DNA of 64,000 nt, from the NCBI RefSeq assembly GCF_004104375.1, contig NZ_QOVM01000004.1, positions 248,001 through 312,000 on the forward strand, given 5' to 3'. Positions 38,464 to 50,243 of this stretch are shown one piece after another (position 1 is the stretch's first letter; every line of letters begins with the position of its first letter). The stretch is from Leeuwenhoekiella aequorea (GTDB lineage: Bacteria; Bacteroidota; Bacteroidia; Flavobacteriales; Flavobacteriaceae). The notes under the pieces are model-generated. The model was not told the origin of the DNA. It saw only the letters and a list, made by a program, of their open reading frames with translations, and searched no databases. Made by a program: the position numbers and the translations under genes.

Positions 38464-38976
38464 ATGAAAACATTAAAATTCACATTTCTTTTAGCACTAT
38501 CACTTGTTTTAGTTAACTGCGGTGATAAAGAAAATAAGGAAGAAAAAGAGGAAGTAAAAATTGGTTCTAATACTTCTTCAACATCAAAAAAAGCAGATGA
38601 AAATGTAACAGAAGTAGTTCTTCTGGCTACAGATTTAATGCAATTTGATAAAAATGAAATACGCGTAGCAGCAGGTAAAAAAGTAAAATTGACCCTTCGT
38701 CACACCGGGAAGCAGCCAGTTGAAGTAATGGGACACAATTTTGTTTTATTAACTCAAGGAACGGAAATTCCTGCCTTTGGAGCTAAAGCCTCTGCAGCAA
38801 GAGATAACGACTATATCCCTGAAGATACAGATGCTGTAATTGTTCACACAAAAATGATAGGTGGCGGTCAATCAGACACTATAGAATTTGATGCTCCAGA
38901 ACCTGGAACTTATGATTTTATATGTAGCTTCCCCGGTCATTACAGTGTAATGAAAGGTAAATTTATTGTAGAATAA
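38464..38976 (+). CDS. Azurin lipoprotein
   Basis: A blue copper electron carrier anchored by a lipobox (SLVLVNC, Cys19). A Lys/Glu-rich linker (20-48) connects to the azurin fold (50-170). Type-1 copper ligands are all present: His91 (MGHNFVL), Cys154 (ICSFPGHYSVMKG), His159 and Met163. It could donate or accept electrons in the periplasm, for example to cytochrome c peroxidase or from a periplasmic dehydrogenase; the GMC dehydrogenase locus lies 3 kb away, but a link is speculative. It has its own terminator. Confidence 0.94.
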   Translation: MKTLKFTFLLALSLVLVNCGDKENKEEKEEVKIGSNTSSTSKKADENVTEVVLLATDLMQFDKNEIRVAAGKKVKLTLRHTGKQPVEVMGHNFVLLTQGTEIPAFGAKASAARDNDYIPEDTDAVIVHTKMIGGGQSDTIEFDAPEPGTYDFICSFPGHYSVMKGKFIVE

Positions 38977-39056: not shown

Positions 39057-40667
39057 ATGAAAACTTACTACTCCATCATACTCGTACTTGTAATGACCCT
39101 ATCTTTTACTTCCTGTAAAAAAGAATCTCAAACCCAAACTATAGATCAGGAATCTGATAGTTTTCCAAATAAAAATTTAGATCCTTTAGAACGTTTTGGT
39201 GAATTATTAGTTGCAGTACAAACGAATCGTGTTTTTCCTGACGGAAAAACCTTTGTAGATTGTGAACCTAAGTTTTCATCAGATACAATTTTAGCTCGAT
39301 ACAAAAAACTAAAAAATCAACCCGATTTTGATTTAAAAACCTTTGTGCTCGATAATTTTACACTTCCCGAAATAGCTACTTCGACATTCAAATCTGATAC
39401 TACTCTATCTACTTCTGAGCATATTAATGCATTATGGCCCTATTTAAAAAGAGATGCAGATGCCGTAGAAAATGGCTCGAGAATTTCTCTACCTAACGCT
39501 TACATAGTTCCTGGCGGTCGCTTTCAAGAGGTTTATTACTGGGATAGTTATTTTATTCTTCTAGGCTTAAAAGAGGCAGGCGAAATAGACCTAATAGAAA
39601 ATATATTAGACAATTTTGCTTATCAAATTGAAACTATTGGCTTTATACCTAACGGAAACAGAACTTACTATCTGGGTCGTTCACAACCTCCTTTTTTTGC
39701 TGAAATGGTAAATCTTTTAGCAGAAATAAAAGAAGAGCGTGAGGTGTATCTCAAGTATCATGATGCGCTTGAAAAAGAATATGAATTCTGGATGAAAGGC
39801 AGTGAAACCCTTGCTTCAGATGCTGCTATAGATCGGATAATTAAGATGCCAGATGGAAGCTTTTTGAATAGATATTACAGCAATACGACAACTCCACGAG
39901 CAGAAAGTTATCTAGAAGATGTCACTACTGCTGAAGAATCTGGACGTAATGCAGCAGAGGTATATTTAAATATTTCAGCAGCATGCGAGAGTGGGTGGGA
40001 TTTTAGCAGCAGATGGTTTGAAGATCCTAATGACATTGCTACTATTCAAACTACAGAGATTATCCCCGTAGATCTTAATGCGCTTCTTTATAACCTAGAA
40101 CAAACATTAGCAGAGGTACGCAAATATGCAAATGACCAGAAAGGATCGACAGCATTAGAACAGGCTGCATCACTCCGTAAAAAAGCTATAGACACGTATT
40201 TGTGGGACAAAAGGAAGGGTACATATGTAGATTATAATATGATGAAAAAGGAAGCTTCCCCTACCCTTTCACTCGCTATGGTTTATCCATTATATTTCAA
40301 ATTAGCTTCAGAAAAACAAGCAGAGTCAGTTTCTCAAGTTTTGGAAAATCAATTTTTAAAACCAGGCGGACTGGTAACAACACTTGAATTAAATAAACAA
40401 CAATGGGACAGTCCTAATGGCTGGCCACCTCACCAATGGCTCGCTGTACGCGGATTAGAATCTTATGGAAAAAATACATTAGCCGAAAAAATTACTTCTC
40501 GCTGGCTAAATCTTAATGATCAGGTTTATAAACGCACCGGCAAAATGCTTGAAAAATACAATGTGATTGACACCACATTAGTTGCCGGAGGAGGAGAATA
40601 TCCCACGCAAGATGGTTTTGGCTGGACAAATGGGGTTTATTTGGATCTTAAAAAGAATAAACGCTAG
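39057..40667 (+). CDS. treA: Trehalase, GH37, lipoprotein
   Basis: Hydrolyses alpha,alpha-trehalose to two glucoses. Exported and lipid-anchored (lipobox SFTSC, Cys20), so it acts in the periplasm. Signature 1 is PGGRFQEVYYWDSY (152-165) and signature 2 is QWDSPNGWPP (449-458). By comparison with the E. coli enzyme the catalytic acid is Asp315 (ESGWDFSSRW) and the base Glu514 (GGGEYPTQDGFGWTNG). At 536 residues it is full length. The sugar-oxidation locus that begins 80 bases away on the other strand may use the glucose or compete for the trehalose. A strong bidirectional terminator separates them. Confidence 0.95.
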   Translation: MKTYYSIILVLVMTLSFTSCKKESQTQTIDQESDSFPNKNLDPLERFGELLVAVQTNRVFPDGKTFVDCEPKFSSDTILARYKKLKNQPDFDLKTFVLDNFTLPEIATSTFKSDTTLSTSEHINALWPYLKRDADAVENGSRISLPNAYIVPGGRFQEVYYWDSYFILLGLKEAGEIDLIENILDNFAYQIETIGFIPNGNRTYYLGRSQPPFFAEMVNLLAEIKEEREVYLKYHDALEKEYEFWMKGSETLASDAAIDRIIKMPDGSFLNRYYSNTTTPRAESYLEDVTTAEESGRNAAEVYLNISAACESGWDFSSRWFEDPNDIATIQTTEIIPVDLNALLYNLEQTLAEVRKYANDQKGSTALEQAASLRKKAIDTYLWDKRKGTYVDYNMMKKEASPTLSLAMVYPLYFKLASEKQAESVSQVLENQFLKPGGLVTTLELNKQQWDSPNGWPPHQWLAVRGLESYGKNTLAEKITSRWLNLNDQVYKRTGKMLEKYNVIDTTLVAGGGEYPTQDGFGWTNGVYLDLKKNKR

Positions 40668-40749: not shown

Positions 40750-41676
40750 CTATATAAAATTATCACACGCGACGTAGGCATCTATAACTGCTTGTTCTCC
40801 TGCTATACCGGAAATCGAGTTACCATGCTCCATCCCCAAAATTCCATTGAAGCCTTTTTTGTGAATATGCCTGAATATATTTTTATAATTAATCTCACCT
40901 GTTGTTGGCTCTTTTCTACCGGGATTATCACCCATTTGAAAATAAGCGATCTCATCCCAACATGCGTCTATATTAGGTATTAAGTTACCTTCTTGTATTT
41001 GTTGATGATAAATATCAAAAAGTATTTTACACGAAGGACTATCAACTGCTTTGCAAATTTGATAAGCTTGTCCACTTTCTTTTAAAAATAATCCGGGATG
41101 GTTATAAAAATTAAGTGGTTCCAAAACCATTACTAGTCCCTCTGGCTCTAATAATGCAGAAGCTTGTTTAAGCGTTTCAATTACATGAGCCGTTTGATAG
41201 TTTATATTTTGAGTCATATCTATATAACCCGGTACAACTGTCATAAATTTTGCATTAACGCGTTTTGCCACACTTATAGAAGCTTTTATGTCTGAGAGAA
41301 ATTCATCCCGCAAATTTTGATTGCCGCTAGTAAGATTGGGAGTGGTCCAATAAATTTTATGTGCTACAAATACACCCATTTGCATATTACGTGAACGCAT
41401 TACCTCAGCAATCCTGTTTTGCTCTGAAACCTCTCGATTACGCATTTCATTATCCTCAAATGCTGTAAATCCCTGGTCGGCCATAAAATTTATTTGCGCA
41501 ATAGGGTCATTACCTGCACTATTTTTAAACATCCCTAAGTGCGGCGCATAATTTAAGTTGAAATGATGCTTGGGCATTGGATTTACAGTATTCTGTAATG
41601 CAAATAGCTCTGTACCACCCAGAGCTAAAAAGGAGCCACTAAGGGCTCCTTTTTGTATAAATAAACGTCTTTTCAT
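40750..41676 (-). CDS. TIM-barrel hydroxypyruvate-isomerase/epimerase-like protein with Tat-type signal
   Basis: A 308-residue xylose-isomerase-like TIM barrel. The N-terminus MKRRLFIQKGALSGSFLALG looks like a twin-arginine signal, so it is probably periplasmic. Metal/acid candidates typical of the family are the Glu in VLEPLN, the Asp and His in LFDIYHQQ and the Glu in LGMEHGNS. Related barrels isomerise hydroxypyruvate or epimerise keto-sugars. Here it is the last gene of an operon with a GMC dehydrogenase, so a 3-keto-sugar substrate is the favoured inference. Its start overlaps the previous stop as TAATG. Confidence 0.82.
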   Translation of the reverse strand: MKRRLFIQKGALSGSFLALGGTELFALQNTVNPMPKHHFNLNYAPHLGMFKNSAGNDPIAQINFMADQGFTAFEDNEMRNREVSEQNRIAEVMRSRNMQMGVFVAHKIYWTTPNLTSGNQNLRDEFLSDIKASISVAKRVNAKFMTVVPGYIDMTQNINYQTAHVIETLKQASALLEPEGLVMVLEPLNFYNHPGLFLKESGQAYQICKAVDSPSCKILFDIYHQQIQEGNLIPNIDACWDEIAYFQMGDNPGRKEPTTGEINYKNIFRHIHKKGFNGILGMEHGNSISGIAGEQAVIDAYVACDNFI

Positions 41677-42314
41677 TACAGTGACATTGCTTTTCCTGCG
41701 CCTGCTTCAGATTCTGGCATACAGCCTATATAAGCCCCTGGAATAGGATCGTACCACATTACATTCTCTCCTACCTCTTCGCTGTTTTTCCATCCCCAGA
41801 TTCCAAGATCTCTTACCGCACTTAGGTAAGCATACGATCCTGCGTGAGCATCAAAATCAGCTTTTGGAGCATCTGGATCCTGAGTTTCAGAAATACGTTT
41901 AACGTAAGCATCTCTGGTTTCGTTATCAGCCCCAAGATACTTTGCTACCGCTTTTTCAAAATCCTCATCATCTGCATCGATTAATTCTTTATCAAAATTC
42001 TCTTTAAAGCTTAATGCAAATGCATTTGCGCCAGATTTAAATTCTTCTTTTTGCTTGTCTCCCGCTACTTCGTTCATGTAGCTGTCAATAAACTGTGCAA
42101 GATTTAAATCTGAAGCACCCGGTGTATCTCCTTTAGGTAAAATAACATCAAGTATTTTAGTTAAAGCATATCCATTAGCCGCATTTAAATAAACAGGCTC
42201 CCAGTCGCTTTTAGGTTCGCTTTTACAACTTTGCAATAAGTTAAAAACGGCTGGAGCTACCATAACATAGCCGGCTCCCAGACCAATATTCTTTAAAACC
42301 TCTCTTCTTTTCAT
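41676..42314 (-). CDS. Gluconate 2-dehydrogenase subunit 3-family small subunit, Tat lipoprotein
   Basis: A 212-residue partner of a GMC dehydrogenase. The signal MKRREVLKNIGLGAGYVMVA has a twin-arginine motif and is followed by a lipobox (LLQSC, Cys30), so the protein should be Tat-exported and lipid-anchored. The mature part shows the family pattern LTKILDVILPKGDTPGASDL and FDAHAGSYAYLSAVRDLGIWGW. In known glucoside 3-dehydrogenases a subunit like this carries the signal for the catalytic subunit, which has none; the adjacent gene fits that. It lies 2 bases after the GMC gene. Confidence 0.88.
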   Translation of the reverse strand: MKRREVLKNIGLGAGYVMVAPAVFNLLQSCKSEPKSDWEPVYLNAANGYALTKILDVILPKGDTPGASDLNLAQFIDSYMNEVAGDKQKEEFKSGANAFALSFKENFDKELIDADDEDFEKAVAKYLGADNETRDAYVKRISETQDPDAPKADFDAHAGSYAYLSAVRDLGIWGWKNSEEVGENVMWYDPIPGAYIGCMPESEAGAGKAMSL

Positions 42315-42316
42315 AA

Positions 42317-44026
42317 TTATGCGAATTTTCCGTTTTTAAATTGCTCTGCTGCGTGTGCGGCTGCACGCGCAGTAAATGCCATATAAGTTAATGATGGATT
42401 TACACAACTAGCAGAAGTCATAAATGCACCGTCTGTAACATAAACATTAGGTACAGCATGTACTTGGTTGTTTCCATTAAGAACCGATGTTTTAGGATCT
42501 CTACCCATACGAGCAGTACCCATTTCATGAATTCCTAAACCTGGAGCTCCAGGATTGTCGTAAGGTTTTACATCTTTAAAGCCAGCATTGGTAAGCATTT
42601 CTACTGCCTGCTGCTTCATATCTTTACGCATCTCCCACTCGTTCTCTTTCCACTCTGCATCAAATGTGATCGTTGGGATTCCCCATTTATCAACCTTATC
42701 ATAATCTAAGGTCATTTTGTTTTCGTGGTATGGCAAACATTCACCAAAAGCTGTAATTCCTATTGTCCAGTCACCTGGTTCAGAAATTGCCTTCTTTAAA
42801 TCTTCTCCATATTTCATTTCAGCTACTGCTTCGGTCCAGTCACCTCGGCTTGCACCACCTTGATATCCATAACCTCTCTTAAAGTTAGGTTGATCGGTCT
42901 CACCACCTACATTTCTAAAACGAGGTATATATAATCCGTTTGCACGGCGGCCTTTATAATATTTATCGTGATAGCCATCAAATTTACCGGAAGCACCTAC
43001 CTGAAAATGGTGGTCCATTATATTGTGCCCTAACTCTCCACTATCATTTCCTAATCCATTAGGAAAACGATCTGATTTTGACTGCATCAAAATAGATGCA
43101 GAAGCAATCGCAGATGCACATAAAAAGATGACTTTAGCGTTAAAAGTCATTTCCTCCTTAGTTTCTGCATCAATAACTTTTACTCCAGTTGCTAATTTAG
43201 TAGTGTCATCATATATAACTTCTTTAACAATACTAAAAGGTCGCAAAGTCATATTGCCTGTCTTTTCTGCTGCTGGCAACGTAGATGAATTACTACTGAA
43301 GTAAGCACCAAATGGGCAACCGCGCATACATCTGTTTCGGTACTGGCACGCAGAACGCCCTTCAAATGTTTTATCTGTATAAGTAATATGTGCTGTACGA
43401 CCTATGGTTACCAGACGATCTTTGTAATTTTGAGCCATATTCTTCTTTAGGTGCTCTTCTACACAGTTAAGATCCATTGGTGGTCCAAAATTACCATCTG
43501 GCAACTGAGGAAGCCCTAAGTTCTCACCACTCACACCTATGTATTCTTCAACCTTGTCATACCAAGGAGCAATATCTTTGTAACGTACCGGCCAGTCTAC
43601 TGCTACGCCCTCTTTTTTATTTGCTTCAAAATCTATATCACTCAAACGATAACTTTGACGGCCCCACATAATAGAACGACCTCCTACGTGATATCCTCGC
43701 ATCCAGTCAAAACGCTTAGTTTCATTATAAGGATGCTCTAAATCGTTTACAAAAAAGTGACTATGCGCTTTGTTTGTAGTATAACCTGTACGCGCTTGCT
43801 TAAACTGTTTTGCCTCCTCTTCTTTTGTAGGTTGGCCTTTAAATTTAAAATCCCAAGGATCCATATTCATGGTAGGATAATCTTCAATATGCCTTACCAT
43901 ACGACCACGTTCAAGAACTAAAGTCTTTAGACCTTGTTCACTTAACTCTTTGGCGGCCCAGCCACCGCTAATTCCAGTACCTACCACAATGGCATCGTAC
44001 ATCTCTTCAGGTTTAATACTACTCAC
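42317..44026 (-). CDS. GMC-family FAD dehydrogenase, glucoside 3-dehydrogenase-like
   Basis: The 569-residue catalytic subunit. FAD is bound by GTGISGGWAAKEL (Gly16 onward); a cysteine-rich segment (CQYRNRCMRGCPFGAYF) and the GMC C-terminal block GIHEMGTARMG with SCVNPSLTYMAFTARAA complete the family picture. There is no signal peptide, so export probably depends on the adjacent Tat subunit. Known relatives oxidise C3 of glucose and glucosides; one was purified from the marine bacterium Cytophaga marinoflava. The start is set to GTG 44026, giving the usual short N-tail before YDAIVVG; ATG 44002 is an alternative, and a TTG at 44071 is less likely. Confidence 0.88.
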   Translation of the reverse strand: MSSIKPEEMYDAIVVGTGISGGWAAKELSEQGLKTLVLERGRMVRHIEDYPTMNMDPWDFKFKGQPTKEEEAKQFKQARTGYTTNKAHSHFFVNDLEHPYNETKRFDWMRGYHVGGRSIMWGRQSYRLSDIDFEANKKEGVAVDWPVRYKDIAPWYDKVEEYIGVSGENLGLPQLPDGNFGPPMDLNCVEEHLKKNMAQNYKDRLVTIGRTAHITYTDKTFEGRSACQYRNRCMRGCPFGAYFSSNSSTLPAAEKTGNMTLRPFSIVKEVIYDDTTKLATGVKVIDAETKEEMTFNAKVIFLCASAIASASILMQSKSDRFPNGLGNDSGELGHNIMDHHFQVGASGKFDGYHDKYYKGRRANGLYIPRFRNVGGETDQPNFKRGYGYQGGASRGDWTEAVAEMKYGEDLKKAISEPGDWTIGITAFGECLPYHENKMTLDYDKVDKWGIPTITFDAEWKENEWEMRKDMKQQAVEMLTNAGFKDVKPYDNPGAPGLGIHEMGTARMGRDPKTSVLNGNNQVHAVPNVYVTDGAFMTSASCVNPSLTYMAFTARAAAHAAEQFKNGKFA

Positions 44027-44068
44027 GTTTTTTCTAGTTTTTTGATAATATATTCTAGCCAATACTAT

Positions 44069-44076
44069 CAAATATA
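44069..44076 (-). promoter_or_regulatory. Possible -7 element for the GMC operon
   Basis: TATATTTG on the minus strand, 43 bases upstream of the GTG at 44026. The -33 TTTG lies somewhat too far (28-base spacer). Confidence 0.4.
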
Positions 44077-44131
44077 TAAATTTTAAGTTATTTTTTAGTT
44101 AAACCAAAAAAAGTATAATTTAGAGATCTTA

Positions 44132-44153
44132 TATGTTTTAAGTGTAAAACATA
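44132..44153. promoter_or_regulatory. Operator-like inverted repeat between the divergent sugar operons
   Basis: TATGTTTTA-AGTG-TAAAACATA, perfect 9-base arms with a 4-base spacer, sits midway in the 169-base gap between the GMC operon (minus) and the TIM-barrel/MFS operon (plus). It is just upstream of a possible plus-strand promoter (TTG at 44159, 19 bases, TAATTTG at 44181). No regulator gene is in the locus. Confidence 0.5.
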
Positions 44154-44195
44154 CGTTATTGCACTTAACTAGAAACAACCTAATTTGCTTAGCCA

Positions 44196-45173
44196 ATGAA
44201 CATTAAACTCCTATTAGCATCACTTACAGTTGTAGCTGTAATGTCATGTAAAAGCGAAAAAAAAATTGAAAAAAATGTCAATGAAAGCGTTGTAGTTGCT
44301 CAAAATGACCCTTTTTTTAAAATTTCTTTAGCACAATGGTCGCTTAATGAAGCAATACGCAATGGTGAAATGAGCCCAATGGATTTTGCCGAAAAAGCCC
44401 GCGAAATGGGTTTTGAAGGAATAGAATATGTAAGCCAACTTTATACCCCACTTATGGAAACTTATTCTAGTGATCAAGTAGCATTAGATTCTATACTTCC
44501 CATATTAAAATCGAAGTCTGAAGCATTTAATGTCGATAATGTTTTAATAATGGTTGACGCAGAAGGTAATCTTGCAGCTGCAAATGAACAAGAGCGTAAT
44601 CAAGCTGTTGAAGATCACAAAAAATGGATTGATGCCGCCGCTTATTTAGGTTGTCACGCTATTCGGGTTAATTTGATAGGCGCTCCGGATGAGGAAGTTT
44701 GGAAAAATAGCGCAATAGACGGTCTGGGAAAATTGTCAGACTATGGAGCTACAAAAAATATCGAAGTGATTGTAGAAAATCACGGTGGCTTTTCTTCTAA
44801 CGCAAAATTACTTATGCAGGTCATTAATACTATAGATAAATCTAACTGTGGTACACTTCCTGACTTCGGTAATTTTTGTATGAAACGTGAAAATGGTGCA
44901 CAATGGGATGGCGCTTGCCTAGAAGAATATCCACGTTATCAAGGTATTGAAGAAATGATGCCAAAAGCTTTAGCTGTTAGTGCCAAGACCTATAACTTTG
45001 ACCAGAACGGTAACGAGACTTCCATGGATTTTTCAAAAATTCTTCAATTAGTAAAAGACGCCGGTTATCAAGGATATATAGGTGTAGAATATGAAGGCAA
45101 CAATCTTACTGCCGAACAAGGAATTATAAAAACCAAAGAATTACTGCTTACTGCAGCACAAAATCTTAACTAA
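44196..45173 (+). CDS. TIM-barrel sugar isomerase/epimerase-like lipoprotein
   Basis: A 325-residue lipoprotein (lipobox VAVMSC) with a xylose-isomerase-like barrel: SLAQWSLNEAIRNGEMSPMD at the start, MGFEGIEYVS, VENHGGFSSN (Glu and His candidates), TLPDFGNFCM (Asp) and YIGVEYEGN (last Glu). It is the first gene of the plus-strand operon, followed 7 bases later by an MFS transporter. Being periplasmic and lipid-anchored, it should act on keto-sugars made by the Tat-exported dehydrogenase. That is inference; the reaction (isomerisation, epimerisation or beta-elimination) is unknown. Confidence 0.82.
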   Translation: MNIKLLLASLTVVAVMSCKSEKKIEKNVNESVVVAQNDPFFKISLAQWSLNEAIRNGEMSPMDFAEKAREMGFEGIEYVSQLYTPLMETYSSDQVALDSILPILKSKSEAFNVDNVLIMVDAEGNLAAANEQERNQAVEDHKKWIDAAAYLGCHAIRVNLIGAPDEEVWKNSAIDGLGKLSDYGATKNIEVIVENHGGFSSNAKLLMQVINTIDKSNCGTLPDFGNFCMKRENGAQWDGACLEEYPRYQGIEEMMPKALAVSAKTYNFDQNGNETSMDFSKILQLVKDAGYQGYIGVEYEGNNLTAEQGIIKTKELLLTAAQNLN

Positions 45174-45180
45174 CTATTTT

Positions 45181-46413
45181 ATGAAATCATTTATTCGCGT
45201 ACAACTCTCAATTATGATGTTCCTGGAGTTCTTTATCTGGGGAGGTTGGTTTGTAACCTTAGGTACATTTATGGGTCAAAATTTAAATGCTAATGCCGGT
45301 GAAATTGGCGCTGCATTTTCTACTCAATCCTGGGGAGCTATCATTGCTCCTTTTATTATAGGGTTAATTGCAGATCGTTACTTTAATGCCGAGCGTATTC
45401 TAGGTGTTTTACATTTAATTGGCGCCGTACTTATGTATCAAATGGCAAATGCTACAGATTTTGCAGCTTTCTATCCTTATGTTTTAGGGTATATGATTGC
45501 TTATATGCCTACACTGGCTTTAGTAAATTCGGTTTCATTTAGACAACTTAAAGATCCGGCTAAAGAGTTTTCATACATACGTGTATTTGGTACCATAGGA
45601 TGGATTGTTGCTGGTGTTGTGATTAGCTATGTATTTTTCTGGGATAGTACAGAAGCCCTTGCAGATGGCGCTCTTAAAAACACATTCTTAATGACCGCAA
45701 TAGCTTCAGCAGTTCTAGGGATTTTCAGTTTTACCTTGCCAAAAACTCCACCTGTTGTTGCAAAAGGTGAAAAAGTAGGAATTCGTGACATCCTTGGTCT
45801 TGATGCTTTATCTCTTTTAAAAGACCGAAATTTCCTAGTGTTCTTTGCTTCTTCAATCTTAATATGTATTCCACTAGCGTTTTATTATCAGAATTTGAGT
45901 CCGTTTCTTACTGAAATAGGTATGGAAGGATCAACTGCAAAAGCAGCAATAGGTCAAGTATCTGAGGTTTTATTTATGCTTTTACTACCCTTATTCTTTA
46001 AGCGTTTTGGGGTAAAATACACTTTATTAATAGGTATGGCTGCTTGGGCAGTACGCTACTTATTATTTGCTTATGGTAATGCAGACGAGCTAGTTGTTAT
46101 GTTATTTATAGGAATCGCGCTTCACGGCGTTTGTTATGATTTTTTCTTTGTATCAGGACAAATTTATACAGATAGCAAAGCAGGAGAGAAATTTAAAAGT
46201 TCTGCGCAAGGTCTTATCACTTTAGCAACTTACGGAGTAGGAATGCTAGTGGGCTTTTTTATAGCAGGAAAAGTTACAGACAGTAATTTAATTAGTGAAG
46301 GGGTTCACGATTGGAATGGCATCTGGACATTTCCGGTACTTTTTGCAGTAGTGGTTATGGTTCTTTTTGCTATATTCTTCAAGAATGAAAAAGTAGAAGA
46401 AAAACATTTATAA
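45181..46413 (+). CDS. MFS transporter, nucleoside:H+ symporter (NupG)-like family
   Basis: A 410-residue inner-membrane protein with twelve helices. MMFLEFFIWGGWFVTLGTFM near the start, FSTQSWGAIIAPFIIGLIAD, RVFGTIGWIVAGVV and GICHD-type stretch ALHGVCYDFFFVSGQIYTD are family hallmarks. NupG relatives in Bacteroidota sugar loci are usually labelled nucleoside permeases, but the operon points to uptake of an oxidised or intact sugar. It starts 7 bases after the lipoprotein gene and stops 1 base before the MocA-type gene. Confidence 0.88.
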   Translation: MKSFIRVQLSIMMFLEFFIWGGWFVTLGTFMGQNLNANAGEIGAAFSTQSWGAIIAPFIIGLIADRYFNAERILGVLHLIGAVLMYQMANATDFAAFYPYVLGYMIAYMPTLALVNSVSFRQLKDPAKEFSYIRVFGTIGWIVAGVVISYVFFWDSTEALADGALKNTFLMTAIASAVLGIFSFTLPKTPPVVAKGEKVGIRDILGLDALSLLKDRNFLVFFASSILICIPLAFYYQNLSPFLTEIGMEGSTAKAAIGQVSEVLFMLLLPLFFKRFGVKYTLLIGMAAWAVRYLLFAYGNADELVVMLFIGIALHGVCYDFFFVSGQIYTDSKAGEKFKSSAQGLITLATYGVGMLVGFFIAGKVTDSNLISEGVHDWNGIWTFPVLFAVVVMVLFAIFFKNEKVEEKHL

Positions 46414-46414
46414 G

Positions 46415-47566
46415 ATGAAAAAACTTAAGATGGGAATGGTAGGCGGCGGTCAAGGATCTTTTATAGGAGATGTACACCGTAGAGCCTCCAGAATAGATGG
46501 AATGATCGACTTGGTTTGTGGGGCGTTTAGCAGTGATGCAGAACGTAGTCTGCAGTCTGCTGAAGCTTTGGGAGTAGCTCCTGAGCGCGCTTACAAAAGC
46601 TTTGAGGAAATGATTAAAAAGGAAGCAGAACTTCCTGAAAATGAGCGTATGGATTTTGTTGCCATTGTCACTCCTAATCATATGCATTTTCCACCTGCAA
46701 AATTAGCGCTTGAATCTGGCTTTCATGTTATTTGCGATAAGCCCGTAACATTAACGCTAGAAGAAGCATTTGATCTTCAAAAAGTAGTAAAAAGCAGCGG
46801 TAAAATTTTTGCTTTAACACATAATTACACGGGCTATCCTATGGTTAAACAAGCTCGATTGATGATAGCAAATGGAGAGCTTGGCGAATTGCGTAAAGTG
46901 GTTGTACACTATTTACAAGGGTGGATGTCAACTGCGGTTGAAGAAACCGAAAACAAACAAGCTTCGTGGCGTGTAGATCCTAAAAAATCTGGAATAGGTG
47001 GTGCATTAGGCGATATAGGTACCCACGCAGAAAACTTAACAGAGTACATTACAGGTAAAAAAATTGTAGAGGTAGCTGCAGACTTAAGTAGCTTTGGCGC
47101 CGGTCGCGTTCTCGATGATGATGGTAATATTTTATTACGTTTAGAAGGAAACACTAAGGGTTCTTTGAGTATATCTCAAATAGCTACAGGAGAAGAAAAC
47201 AATCTGGGCATACGTATTTATGGAACAAAAGGAAGCGTAGCTTGGTATCAGGAAAATCCTAATGAATTAACAGCCTATTGGTTAGATAAACCCAAGCAGA
47301 TTTTCACTCCTGGTGGTAATGGCACATACCCAGAATCTACCGAATATACACGAGTTCCTCCAGGTCATCCGGAAGGTTACTTAGAAGGTTTTGCTACTAT
47401 ATACCGCAGCTTTGCAAGAGAAGTTGAAGCAGTAAAGAATGGAGCTGACCTATCTGAAAGACCAGATTTTCCTACTATAGATGACGGCTTACGCGGTATG
47501 CAGTTTATATACGCTTCTGTAGCTTCAAGCGATAATAATGCTGCTTGGGTTAGCTTAAAAAATTAA
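46415..47566 (+). CDS. Gfo/Idh/MocA-family oxidoreductase
   Basis: A 383-residue cytoplasmic NAD(P)-dependent sugar oxidoreductase. The Rossmann start GMVGGGQGSFIGDVHRRA binds cofactor, CDKP (Cys107-Pro110) carries the catalytic Lys109, and GDIGTHAENLTEYITG provides the second active-site motif with Asp and His. There is no signal peptide. Some family members oxidise C3 of glycosides to start beta-elimination, while others reduce keto-sugars. After the transporter it probably acts on an imported keto-sugar or glycoside. Start 1 base after the MFS stop. Confidence 0.9.
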   Translation: MKKLKMGMVGGGQGSFIGDVHRRASRIDGMIDLVCGAFSSDAERSLQSAEALGVAPERAYKSFEEMIKKEAELPENERMDFVAIVTPNHMHFPPAKLALESGFHVICDKPVTLTLEEAFDLQKVVKSSGKIFALTHNYTGYPMVKQARLMIANGELGELRKVVVHYLQGWMSTAVEETENKQASWRVDPKKSGIGGALGDIGTHAENLTEYITGKKIVEVAADLSSFGAGRVLDDDGNILLRLEGNTKGSLSISQIATGEENNLGIRIYGTKGSVAWYQENPNELTAYWLDKPKQIFTPGGNGTYPESTEYTRVPPGHPEGYLEGFATIYRSFAREVEAVKNGADLSERPDFPTIDDGLRGMQFIYASVASSDNNAAWVSLKN

Positions 47567-47572
47567 TAATTA

Positions 47573-47600
47573 AACATAGCGTCTCTCAAGACGCTGTGTT
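47573..47600 (+). terminator. Stem-loop between the MocA-type and TIM-barrel genes
   Basis: 11-base-pair stem (47573-47583 with 47590-47600, one G:U) and 6-base loop follow the oxidoreductase stop by 6 bases. The tail is TTATAT rather than a full U-tract, so it may be an attenuator or a 3'-end stabiliser within the operon instead of a full stop. Confidence 0.55.
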
Positions 47601-47620
47601 TATATAAAATAAACAACCAA

Positions 47621-48673
47621 ATGAAAACCATAAAAGGCCCTGCAGTTTTTCTCGCTCAGTTTATGGACGATAAAGAACCCTTCAATTCTCTTGACGGATT
47701 GTGTAAATGGGCAAGCAATCTAGGTTATAAAGGAATTCAAATCCCTACTTGGGAAACTCGTTTAATCGATCTAAAAAAAGCAGCAGAAAGCAAAACATAC
47801 TGCGACGAGATTAAAGGCAAAGTAAATAGCTACGGCTTAGAGATCACCGAACTATGTACACATCTTCAAGGGCAATTAGTTGCTGTACATCCTGCATATG
47901 ATGAGATGTTTGACAATTTTGCTCCAGACGGTTTTAAAAATAATCCAAAAAAGCGTCAGGCGTGGGCAGTTGACCAATTAATAAGTGCTGCAAAAGCGAG
48001 TAGAAATTTAGGTATTGATGTTCACGGTACATTTAGTGGAGCATTACTATGGCACACTTTTCATCCATGGCCACAGCGCCCTCCAGGATTAGTAGAATTA
48101 GGATTTAAAGAACTGGCAGAACGCTGGACTCCTATTTTGAATGCTTTTGATGAGCAAGGTGTAGATGTATGTTATGAAGTACACCCTGGTGAAGATATTC
48201 ACGACGGAGTAACTTTTGAACTTTTTCGAGAAGCTACAGGCAATCACAAACGTGTAAATATTTTATATGATCCTAGTCATTTTGTACTTCAGCAATTAGA
48301 CTATATCGAGTATATAGACAATTATCACGAGTTTATAAAAATGTTTCACGTAAAGGATTCAGAGTTTAATCCTACGGGTAAAAAAGGTGTTTTTGGAGGT
48401 TATGGCGATTGGAAAGATCGCGCAGGACGCTATCGCTCTCCAGGAGACGGACAAATAGATTTTAAAACCATATTTACTAAACTTACAGAATATAGCTGTG
48501 ATGTTTGGGCAGTTATGGAATGGGAATGCTGTATCAAATCTCCAGAACAAGGGGCCCGGGAAGGTGCTCCATTTATTGCCGGTCACATAATAGAGGCTAC
48601 CGAAAAAGCTTTTGACGATTTTGCTGGTGCGGAAACAGATGAAGCAAAACTGAAACGAATTTTAGGTATTTAA
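47621..48673 (+). CDS. TIM-barrel sugar isomerase/epimerase-like protein, cytoplasmic
   Basis: A 350-residue xylose-isomerase-like barrel without a signal peptide. Conserved acidic and His residues of the family appear in CYEVHPGEDIHDG, LYDPSHFVLQQ, FHVKDSEFNPTG and WAVMEWECC. The N-terminus (GPAVFLAQFMDDKEPFNSL) and the GYGDWKDRAGRYRSPGDG loop are typical of the version common in Bacteroidota GMC/DUF1080 loci. It is the third such barrel in the locus and the only one predicted cytoplasmic. Possible roles are keto-sugar epimerase or lyase. Confidence 0.85.
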   Translation: MKTIKGPAVFLAQFMDDKEPFNSLDGLCKWASNLGYKGIQIPTWETRLIDLKKAAESKTYCDEIKGKVNSYGLEITELCTHLQGQLVAVHPAYDEMFDNFAPDGFKNNPKKRQAWAVDQLISAAKASRNLGIDVHGTFSGALLWHTFHPWPQRPPGLVELGFKELAERWTPILNAFDEQGVDVCYEVHPGEDIHDGVTFELFREATGNHKRVNILYDPSHFVLQQLDYIEYIDNYHEFIKMFHVKDSEFNPTGKKGVFGGYGDWKDRAGRYRSPGDGQIDFKTIFTKLTEYSCDVWAVMEWECCIKSPEQGAREGAPFIAGHIIEATEKAFDDFAGAETDEAKLKRILGI

Positions 48674-48685
48674 AATATAAAAACA

Positions 48686-49429
48686 ATGAAAAAATTCACT
48701 TTATCCTTAGGACTTGCTATCGCGCTCTTTGCATCTTGTAAAGAACAGACGAAAAATGCTGAAAATGAAACTGTAGCAGTTTCAGAAACTGAAGAAACTC
48801 AACCGCAAGAGGAATGGACTATTCTTTTTGATGGTAGCAACCTCGACAATTGGCATGTGTATAATGGGGCTGAACCTACGCAATGGAAAATCGAAGATGA
48901 AGCACTGGTATTCACACCTGCAGAAAAAAGAGATGGTACCGAAAATTTAGTAACAGACAGCACATATACTAGCTTTGTATTGAGCCTTGACTGGAAGATT
49001 TCAGAAGGTGGAAATAGCGGTATTTTATGGGGTGTACAAGAAGATCCAAAATTCAATGAGCCTTACTATACAGGTGCAGAAATACAAGTTCTTGATGATG
49101 AACGCCATCCAGATGCAAAGGCAGGAACCACACACCGTTCTGGTGCATTGTATGATATGATTGCAGCTCCAGAAGGTGTTGTTAAATCTGCCGGTGAGTG
49201 GAATACTTATGAGATAACAATAGATCATAATACTAACAAAGGTAGTGTGGTAATGAATGGTCAAGAGGTTGTCACATTCCCGGTGTCTGGTGAGGAATGG
49301 GATGCTATGGTTGCAAAATCAAAATTCGCAGATTGGGAAGCATTTGCTAAAGTAAAAACCGGAAAAATTGCTTTACAAGACCACGGCAATCAAGTTTCTT
49401 ACAGAAATATAAAAATTAAACAACTTTAA
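48686..49429 (+). CDS. DUF1080 (3-keto-disaccharide hydrolase domain) lipoprotein 1
   Basis: A 247-residue lipoprotein (lipobox LFASC). The mature part is a concanavalin-like beta-jelly-roll: WTILFDGSNLDNWHVYNG, GNSGILWGVQED, TGAEIQVLDDERHPD and ALQDHGNQVSYRNIKIKQL are diagnostic DUF1080 blocks. The Pfam family is named after hydrolysis of 3-keto-disaccharides. It would act in the periplasm on products of the GMC dehydrogenase. It lies 12 bases after the TIM-barrel gene and 4 bases before a second DUF1080 gene. Confidence 0.9.
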   Translation: MKKFTLSLGLAIALFASCKEQTKNAENETVAVSETEETQPQEEWTILFDGSNLDNWHVYNGAEPTQWKIEDEALVFTPAEKRDGTENLVTDSTYTSFVLSLDWKISEGGNSGILWGVQEDPKFNEPYYTGAEIQVLDDERHPDAKAGTTHRSGALYDMIAAPEGVVKSAGEWNTYEITIDHNTNKGSVVMNGQEVVTFPVSGEEWDAMVAKSKFADWEAFAKVKTGKIALQDHGNQVSYRNIKIKQL

Positions 49430-49433
49430 AATA

Positions 49434-50243
49434 ATGATTAGAAAAGTATTTGTACTTCCGGCTTTAGTTGCAGGATTATTAATTTCTTGTAATACTTCCG
49501 AAGAAAAAAAGAAGGAGGGTTTAACAACATCCGTAACTGATACCACATCAGTCGTTGAAGAAGCTCCTATTACAGATCCTAAAGAAACTGAAGTCTGGGA
49601 ACCAGAACCTGCAGTTGTAACTTTTAACAAAAACGGAGTTCCTTCTGACGCTATTGTCTTATTTAATGGTGAAAATCTTAATGCTTGGAAAAGTGCCACA
49701 GATTCTATTGTTAATGCCCCTTGGCAAATAAATAAAGACGGCTCTATGACGGTTGTAGGCGGTACGGGAGACATCCAAACAAAAGAATCTTATGGTGACA
49801 TGCAGTTGCACGTTGAATGGCAAGCTCCGCAAGTCGTAGAGGGAGAAGGTCAAGGTCGAGGTAATAGTGGGATCTTTTTACAAGGATTATACGAAGTACA
49901 AGTACTTAACAGCTTCGAGAACCGTACCTATTCTAATGGGCAAGCTACTGCAATTTATAAGCAATCTATACCACTTGCAAATGCTACAAAACCTACTAAA
50001 GAATGGCAGACCTATGACATCATTTATCATCAACCTGTATTTGATGCAGATGGTAACAAGACACAATCTGCTACCGTAACTGTTTTGCACAATGGTGTTT
50101 TAGTTCAAGATAATGTAGAGATACAGGGTACTACAGAATATATAGGAAAACCTAAAAATGAAGCACACGGCGAAGGTCCGATTAAATTACAGGATCACGG
50201 AAACCCGGTTAGCTTTAGAAATATCTGGCTGCGAAAGCTATAA
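49434..50243 (+). CDS. DUF1080 (3-keto-disaccharide hydrolase domain) lipoprotein 2
   Basis: A 269-residue lipoprotein (lipobox LLISC) with a second DUF1080 domain: AIVLFNGENLNAWKS, GRGNSGIFLQGLYEVQVL and LQDHGNPVSFRNIWLRKL. A divergent sister of the preceding gene, it has an insertion around VEWQAPQVVEGEGQGR and a Thr/Glu-rich linker after the lipid Cys. Tandem DUF1080 genes may divide work between different glycosides or steps. It closes the plus-strand operon and is followed by a strong terminator. Confidence 0.9.
   Translation: MIRKVFVLPALVAGLLISCNTSEEKKKEGLTTSVTDTTSVVEEAPITDPKETEVWEPEPAVVTFNKNGVPSDAIVLFNGENLNAWKSATDSIVNAPWQINKDGSMTVVGGTGDIQTKESYGDMQLHVEWQAPQVVEGEGQGRGNSGIFLQGLYEVQVLNSFENRTYSNGQATAIYKQSIPLANATKPTKEWQTYDIIYHQPVFDADGNKTQSATVTVLHNGVLVQDNVEIQGTTEYIGKPKNEAHGEGPIKLQDHGNPVSFRNIWLRKL

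Follow-up and report, generated by a model that had tools for sequence, protein, structure and literature searches.

A divergent nine-gene locus of Leeuwenhoekiella aequorea with a predicted pathway for C3 oxidation and elimination-type cleavage of glucosides, and an azurin gene beside it

A 64,000-nucleotide stretch of the Leeuwenhoekiella aequorea genome (contig NZ_QOVM01000004.1, positions 248,001 to 312,000; hereafter the window) contains nine genes that are predicted to encode a pathway in which a sugar is oxidized at C3, the product is cleaved by elimination, and the resulting glycal is hydrated and reduced. We put the probability of this pathway as a whole at about 0.8, and we regard its division between periplasm and cytoplasm, read loosely, as probable. 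Adjoining the locus is the gene for an azurin lipoprotein, an electron carrier missed by the original prediction, which from its genomic association is somewhat favored as the acceptor of the dehydrogenase. A broader proposal is more tentative: that the carrier is a plug-in component (azurin in some genera, a dedicated monoheme cytochrome c clade in others) and that reactive 2-hydroxy-3-keto-glucal is imported by a NupG-type permease.

Gene content and predicted pathway

The nine open reading frames (ORFs) lie in two tight divergent runs (Table 1), with intergenic gaps of −1 and 2 bp in the minus run and 7, 1, 54, 12 and 4 bp in the plus run. Pfam assigns them to AP_endonuc_2 (three TIM barrels), Gluconate_2-dh3, GMC_oxred N and C, Nuc_H_symport, GFO_IDH_MocA and 3keto-disac_hyd (DUF1080; two proteins). 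The genes, families, coordinates and divergent arrangement named in the original prediction are thus borne out by the ORF list and Pfam. Export signals were judged by eye, without a predictor: a twin-arginine (Tat) type RR leader is present on the barrel at 40750–41676, RR plus a lipobox-like SC on the dehydrogenase small subunit, and a lipobox on the barrel starting at 44196 and on both DUF1080 proteins. No export leader was seen by eye on the Gfo protein or on the barrel starting at 47621.

In the scheme that follows the substrates, the direction of the reactions, the compartments, the electron transfer and the identity of the cleaving protein are predictions. The GMC flavoprotein, which would be exported together with the Tat-leader small subunit, would oxidize a glucoside (or glucose) at C3 in the periplasm. 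A predicted [3Fe-4S] site would then hand the electrons to a separate carrier, for which the neighboring azurin is the likeliest candidate. Cleavage of the 3-keto-glycoside to the aglycone and 2-hydroxy-3-keto-glucal would fall to the lipoprotein barrel together with both DUF1080 lipoproteins and would run partly or wholly by beta-elimination. The Tat barrel may isomerize or epimerize a keto-sugar. Because cleavage would occur outside and the hydratase lies inside, the keto-glycal would have to cross the inner membrane. For this reason, and because its gene sits between the two sets, the NupG-type permease is the likely carrier of the keto-glycal, and it may bring in the keto-glycal, 3-keto-glucose or both. 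In the cytoplasm the 47621 barrel would hydrate the glycal to 3-keto-glucose, which the Gfo enzyme would reduce to glucose. If the DUF1080 proteins hydrolyze their substrate, 3-keto-glucose would cross the membrane in place of the glycal. With this scheme a set of sugar genes becomes a pathway open to testing, and the permease becomes a candidate for the transport of a reactive keto-glycal.

The three TIM barrels

The 47621 barrel is 65.0% identical over its full length (349 residues, 551 bits) to 8ro4, a solved 2-hydroxy-3-keto-glucal hydratase, and by this close homology it is a hydratase and not a lyase. The route that had been predicted from C3 oxidation through cleavage and import to reduction, with different roles for the barrels, is supported, with the cytoplasmic barrel changed from lyase to hydratase.

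The residues E194-N-H196 of the 44196 barrel, numbered by hand, align with E141-V-H143 in the 7bvr/7exz chain. His143 of the C-glycoside eliminase is named as catalytic in PMC10628242. The E-x-H motif of these eliminases (metal Glu, catalytic His) is present in the lipoprotein barrel, whose predicted model has a pLDDT (predicted local distance difference test) score of 92.1. The Tat barrel resembles an isomerase or epimerase. The Agrobacterium eliminase AtOGE (8BVK) is not among the matches listed for the three barrels, an absence that excludes nothing.

The GMC dehydrogenase and its small subunit

The C-x5-C-x3-C triad, the His and the Asn of the GMC protein align with fructose and glucose dehydrogenases, and we take these to be functional residues of the flavin adenine dinucleotide (FAD)/[3Fe-4S] sugar dehydrogenases. 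The three-heme subunit of such dehydrogenases was found among none of the nine proteins. The genome has one GMC protein of this kind (E 1e-100). Of two possible starts, the in-frame GTG at 44026 (569 aa) is more likely than the listed TTG at 44071, because counting from that GTG gives 1710 nt, as in the L. marinoflava ORF; with the TTG start the two runs are 124 bp apart. An RRxx[LIVM]K motif occurs in 50 of 60 small-subunit homologues, 49 of them with [SGA]C after it; a stricter leader pattern matched just 5/60.

The nearest named GMC relatives are those of eight Leeuwenhoekiella loci (90–94% identical). L. marinoflava DSM 3653 carries azurin, trehalase and all nine genes in identical order, with 73.0–94.9% identity to the window over the eleven proteins (93.8% for GMC). 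Cytophaga marinoflava is the earlier name of this species, and a glucose 3-dehydrogenase that cannot use NAD+ was found in it, according to PMC7676230, citing Tsugawa 1996. The original prediction had named a relative of the GMC/small-subunit pair from C. marinoflava, which is borne out to this extent, and the window comes from the same genus. We infer that the reported enzyme is this GMC protein, for which the locus offers a gene candidate.

Permease, Gfo and DUF1080 proteins

The MFS protein is of the nucleoside-permease type by PF03825 (Table 1); it scores 385.8 bits against TIGR00889, under the cut-off of 446.1. The solved chain nearest to the Gfo protein, 3v5n, has no stated function. In the Flavobacteriaceae sample described below the window Gfo belongs to the less common of two types, 57–69% identical to 7 of 51 homologues and 39.5–46.1% to the other 44. 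The two DUF1080 proteins are the only PF06439 genes of the genome. Solved relatives of DUF1080 a include 4jqt, 8tda and 8rr2, while b matches 4qhz with 237.7 bits and its next match is at 30.6 bits.

Several variations were seen in relatives. A different MFS (cluster c22) is present and the NupG-type absent in L053, L056, L063, L065, L067 and L084, as if the importer had been swapped. The Gfo proteins of the two types, with about 43% mutual identity, swap or coexist in the locus (side by side in L040, L042 and L067) and may have different jobs. In many relatives the GMC run also holds a third subtype of DUF1080 (cluster c15; found in 14 loci), often with a further Gfo-family protein whose RR leader was judged by eye (cluster c14; likewise 14 loci) (examples of these clusters: L047, L053, L054, L060–L063, L065, L068, L072 and L084).

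The locus is conserved in the Flavobacteriaceae

We sampled 120 Flavobacteriaceae genomes, one per genus and including that of the window, and called a genome GMC-positive if it had a match at E 1e-100 and GMC-negative if it had none at that threshold, weaker GMC kin being possible. Sixty genomes were GMC-positive. Since the GMC gene is present in half of these genera, a non-hydrolytic route may be common in marine sugar use. From the other 59 GMC-positive genomes 60 loci were read, several of which stop at contig ends; for G103 the locus read holds a weaker GMC copy (L090) rather than the best match, and G082 was read twice (L068, L092). Near GMC in these 60 loci we found the small subunit in 56, the lipoprotein barrel in 48, Gfo in 48, the hydratase in 46, DUF1080 in 43, the NupG-type permease in 41, the Tat barrel in 24 and azurin in 18. 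Genome-wide, the hydratase occurs in 55/60 GMC-positive and 1/60 GMC-negative genomes, as does the lipoprotein barrel (hand count; p = 9e-27, relatedness ignored), and the sole GMC-negative exception, G036, has both.

In a set of 80 named loci, of which 63 are long (at least 19 kb), the small subunit and lipoprotein barrel occur in all 63 long loci, Gfo in 62, the hydratase in 61, the NupG-type permease in 57, DUF1080 b in 42, DUF1080 a in 39, the Tat barrel in 35, azurin in 27 and a cytochrome c in 14. Trehalase was present in 9/63. The conservation of the layout across the family argues that the locus is more than chance. In a draw across the phylum, GMC was found at E 1e-120 in 44 of 148 genomes. 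From the counts inside and outside the Flavobacteriaceae, the unit is real in the family and looser beyond it, so that the outcome which would have refuted the original prediction, a lack of co-occurrence in other genomes, is not seen within the family, with much weaker co-location outside it, and trehalase is a local, optional addition. The GH37 gene that had been suggested to feed or compete with the locus is present in the window and is not a conserved part of it.

Enzymes that probably split alpha-glucobioses recur near GMC: trehalase in the Leeuwenhoekiella-type loci and in L144 and L145, which belong to another family, and, in Hymenobacter volaticus (L244), the product of a GH65 gene. 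These neighbors hint at trehalose-like substrates. At the ilv site we also found partial sets that look like decayed or relocated copies of the locus: L108 has MFS, Gfo, hydratase and DUF1080 but no GMC, L107 has DUF1080 and a relative of the Tat barrel, and L094 has azurin alone.

Azurin and cytochrome c exchange beside the locus

In LacABC-type dehydrogenases LacB is a cytochrome c. Pfam identifies no cytochrome subunit among the nine proteins here, and an azurin gene lies beside the locus instead. Azurin and the GH37 trehalase adjoin the 40750 end of the nine-gene set on the plus strand, converging on the minus run.

In 14 loci, including that of the window, the left flank is cluster c17, c23 or abhyd, and the right flank, wherever it is covered, is yicC. 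The slot after the left flank holds azurin in nine, a monoheme cytochrome c lipoprotein in four (L040, L043, L048 and L070) and neither in one (L074). We compared the yicC site in 20 GMC-negative genomes, drawn from the better yicC matches and not at random. The flanks are directly joined in 19/20, and azurin or the slot cytochrome is present in 0/20, as compared to 13/14 of the slot-context loci. There is also a second setting in which azurin adjoins the locus, one whose left flank resembles ilv.

Kin of the slot cytochrome occur somewhere in 78/120 genomes. The L. aequorea genome has none at E 1e-20, and a second cytochrome query gave just a weak match, with 30% identity and E 3e-4, in a frame of 452 aa. 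A 64-row tree of these cytochromes divides at 100/100 into clade A, whose 22 rows represent 21 genomes, each of them GMC-positive, and a remainder of 29 GMC-positive and 13 GMC-negative rows. In Aquimarina a clade-A-like cytochrome gene lies 22–53 bp from GMC on the same strand in 13 of 23 loci, and all 15 locus-linked named cytochromes group with clade A (100/99). Outside the family, a small c-type cytochrome gene adjoins the hydratase in three of the five hydratase loci (L146, L154, L156).

Azurin is present in 39/120 genomes, 28 of them GMC-positive (hand count, at least 85 bits); in 19 of these 28 it lies beside the GMC locus and in one more about 10 kb off. Azurin (28/60) and clade A (21/60) occur together in none of the GMC-positive genomes (hand count), a lack of overlap that has a chance probability of 1.6e-8, relatedness ignored. 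This exclusivity applies to azurin-sized proteins: the count excludes eight genomes with just 50–59-bit matches in frames of about 650–1180 aa (G001, G002, G011, G018, G037, G050, G075, G080), seven of which carry a clade-A cytochrome. An exchangeable electron carrier, azurin in this locus, fits these patterns best and suggests how such an enzyme may couple to respiration without a co-encoded cytochrome subunit. Within the limited literature searched, we found nothing in print that links azurin to such a dehydrogenase.

A similar lipoprotein leader (approximately CGxxKKExKKxFSYERT, by eye; for example L040:12629-13117 and L054:13815-14327) is found on some of the slot cytochromes and on some of the azurins, as if the redox domain had been swapped behind a constant leader. 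The window azurin is without a motif of this kind.

Alternative explanations

Several observations weigh against the pathway or its carrier. Activity is known for none of these proteins, and at the position of a further, later His of the eliminase the lipoprotein barrel carries an invariant Ser. Among 20 loci read outside the Flavobacteriaceae the hydratase is nearby in 5 and the lipoprotein barrel in 3. The azurin gene lies outside the GMC operon, because it converges on the GMC run; no carrier stands alongside the 13 loci with a c16 left flank, and 10 of the 23 Aquimarina loci have no cytochrome beside GMC. Azurin also occurs in 11/60 GMC-negative genomes. When 23 GMC-negative rows were added to the cytochrome tree, which left out two GMC-negative loci (L222, L234), one long-branch GMC-negative row (G022) joined clade A and 35 fell outside it. 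Three further observations against the carrier are given with the first alternative below.

The link to the carriers might be a neighborhood shared by descent, with the electrons going to a different acceptor, for instance a general cytochrome or a quinone. This is doubtful, if a serious alternative. Two GMC-negative genomes (L094, L095) retain an ilv-site azurin although the locus itself is missing, L109 has azurin near abhyd with GMC elsewhere in that genome, the locus-linked azurins do not form a clade in a mixed azurin tree, and 11/60 GMC-positive genomes have neither azurin nor clade A, all of which such a neighborhood would explain. It would not account for the carrier-free yicC sites of GMC-negative genomes, the same-strand Aquimarina cytochromes, the confinement of clade A to GMC-positive genomes in the 64-row tree, or the separation of azurin from clade A. 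The cleavage step could instead be hydrolytic, with DUF1080 freeing 3-keto-glucose in the periplasm for import and reduction and the hydratase handling a glycal from elsewhere or a side product. PMC9007349 treats DUF1080 proteins as 3-keto-glycoside hydrolases, and the Pfam name of the family likewise denotes a hydrolase. We nevertheless consider this unlikely, as the hydratase is kept in nearly all GMC-positive genomes and would be of little use without glycal formation. Very improbable is a GMC enzyme that acts on another position or substrate class (sugar C1, inositol), with the cluster serving that reaction. The best solved GMC relatives are indeed fructose and glucose dehydrogenases, at just 117 bits, and the hydratase matches the inosose dehydratase model TIGR04379 weakly (60.4 bits, cut-off 290). 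It is, however, far nearer to 8ro4, the partner genes are those of C3-oxidation clusters, and a glucose 3-dehydrogenase, not tied to this gene, is reported from the species with the 93.8% identical GMC. C3 oxidation followed by elimination remains the reading that we prefer.

Comparison with known systems

The chemistry and the type of cluster are already known (PMC10628242, PMC7676230, PMC10066097, PMC9007349). C-glycoside cleavage had been proposed as the model for the locus. The closest model is instead the O-glucoside pathway of Agrobacterium tumefaciens, with GlycDH and its TAT subunit, AtOGE, AtHYD and a Gfo enzyme (PMC10628242), while the E-x-H motif of the C-glycoside eliminases (DgpB-C/PuCGE, CarB-C) does recur in the lipoprotein barrel. 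Common to the locus and the Agrobacterium route are a flavin dehydrogenase that has a Tat small subunit, barrels resembling sugar isomerases, a Gfo enzyme and, as predicted for the locus, the order of oxidation, elimination, hydration and reduction. It differs in its azurin neighbor, two DUF1080 proteins, NupG-type permease and export leaders on two barrels, as far as the source describes that route, and in the lack of AtOGE among the listed matches. As compared to the C-glycoside eliminases, Pfam finds no second-subunit family among the nine proteins.

Clusters for the LacABC lactose/glucoside 3-dehydrogenase with DUF1080 are described from Caulobacter, Pedobacter, Algoriphagus and Indibacter (PMC9007349), and thus also in Bacteroidetes. 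They have in common with the window a 3-dehydrogenase (a candidate one in the window) and DUF1080, with genes for a transporter, a reductase and two epimerase-like proteins nearby. At the level of Pfam families our large and small subunits fit the LacA/LacC type. The levoglucosan pathway of Bacillus smithii (LgdA-LgdB1-LgdB2-LgdC; PMC7676230) has the four chemical steps, two barrels and a Gfo reductase; no GMC protein is part of the description given there, and the oxidation is NAD-dependent, by LgdA. The Bacteroides BT2157-2159 keto-disaccharide pathway shares the DUF1080 family, whereas the locus Gfo scores 32.9 and 24.1 bits against NCBIfam BT_2158 and BT_2159, far below their cut-offs of 750 and 650. 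A plasmid locus of Hymenobacter volaticus (NZ_CP095062.1) has GMC, the small subunit, a nucleoside permease, Gfo, a barrel and DUF1080 in one run; there a c-type cytochrome gene follows the hydratase-like barrel, and the neighboring glycosidase gene is GH65, not trehalase. The variant features of the window locus are azurin replacing the cytochrome component, three barrels distributed by their leaders over two compartments, and paired DUF1080 subtypes.

Features of the locus

Table 1. Features at the divergent locus, with positions in the window
Feature	Position	Strand	Evidence
Azurin lipoprotein, proposed electron acceptor of the dehydrogenase	38464..38976	+	TIGR02695 106.8 bits (cut-off 105.1)
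GH37 trehalase, lipobox-like leader; non-core, local to Leeuwenhoekiella-type loci	39057..40667	+	PF01204 479.4 bits
Tat-leader TIM barrel, candidate keto-sugar isomerase or epimerase	40750..41676	-	
Dehydrogenase small subunit, RR leader and SC	41676..42314	-	PF13618 66.2 bits
GMC flavoprotein, candidate glucoside/glucose 3-dehydrogenase	42317..44026	-	PF00732, PF05199
Divergent promoter region	44027..44195		Good conservation of the center in loci of the Leeuwenhoekiella type
Lipoprotein TIM barrel, candidate 3-keto-glycoside eliminase	44196..45173	+	238 bits to 4ovx
NupG-type MFS permease, proposed keto-glycal or 3-keto-sugar importer	45181..46413	+	PF03825 396.8 bits (cut-off 25.9)
Gfo/Idh/MocA oxidoreductase, proposed 3-keto-glucose reductase	46415..47566	+	PF01408; 403.6 bits to 3v5n
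Cytoplasmic TIM barrel, 2-hydroxy-3-keto-glucal hydratase by homology	47621..48673	+	551 bits to 8ro4
DUF1080 lipoprotein a, candidate 3-keto-glycoside-cleaving enzyme	48686..49429	+	PF06439 161.3 bits (cut-off 26.8)
DUF1080 lipoprotein b, different subtype from a	49434..50243	+	PF06439 147 bits (cut-off 26.8)

The window has no gene at the position in the divergent promoter where relatives carry a regulator. An AraC-like regulator (cluster c19, family judged by eye) adjoins GMC at this promoter in 12 loci (L047, L053, L054, L060, L062, L063, L065, L067, L068, L072, L075 and L089).

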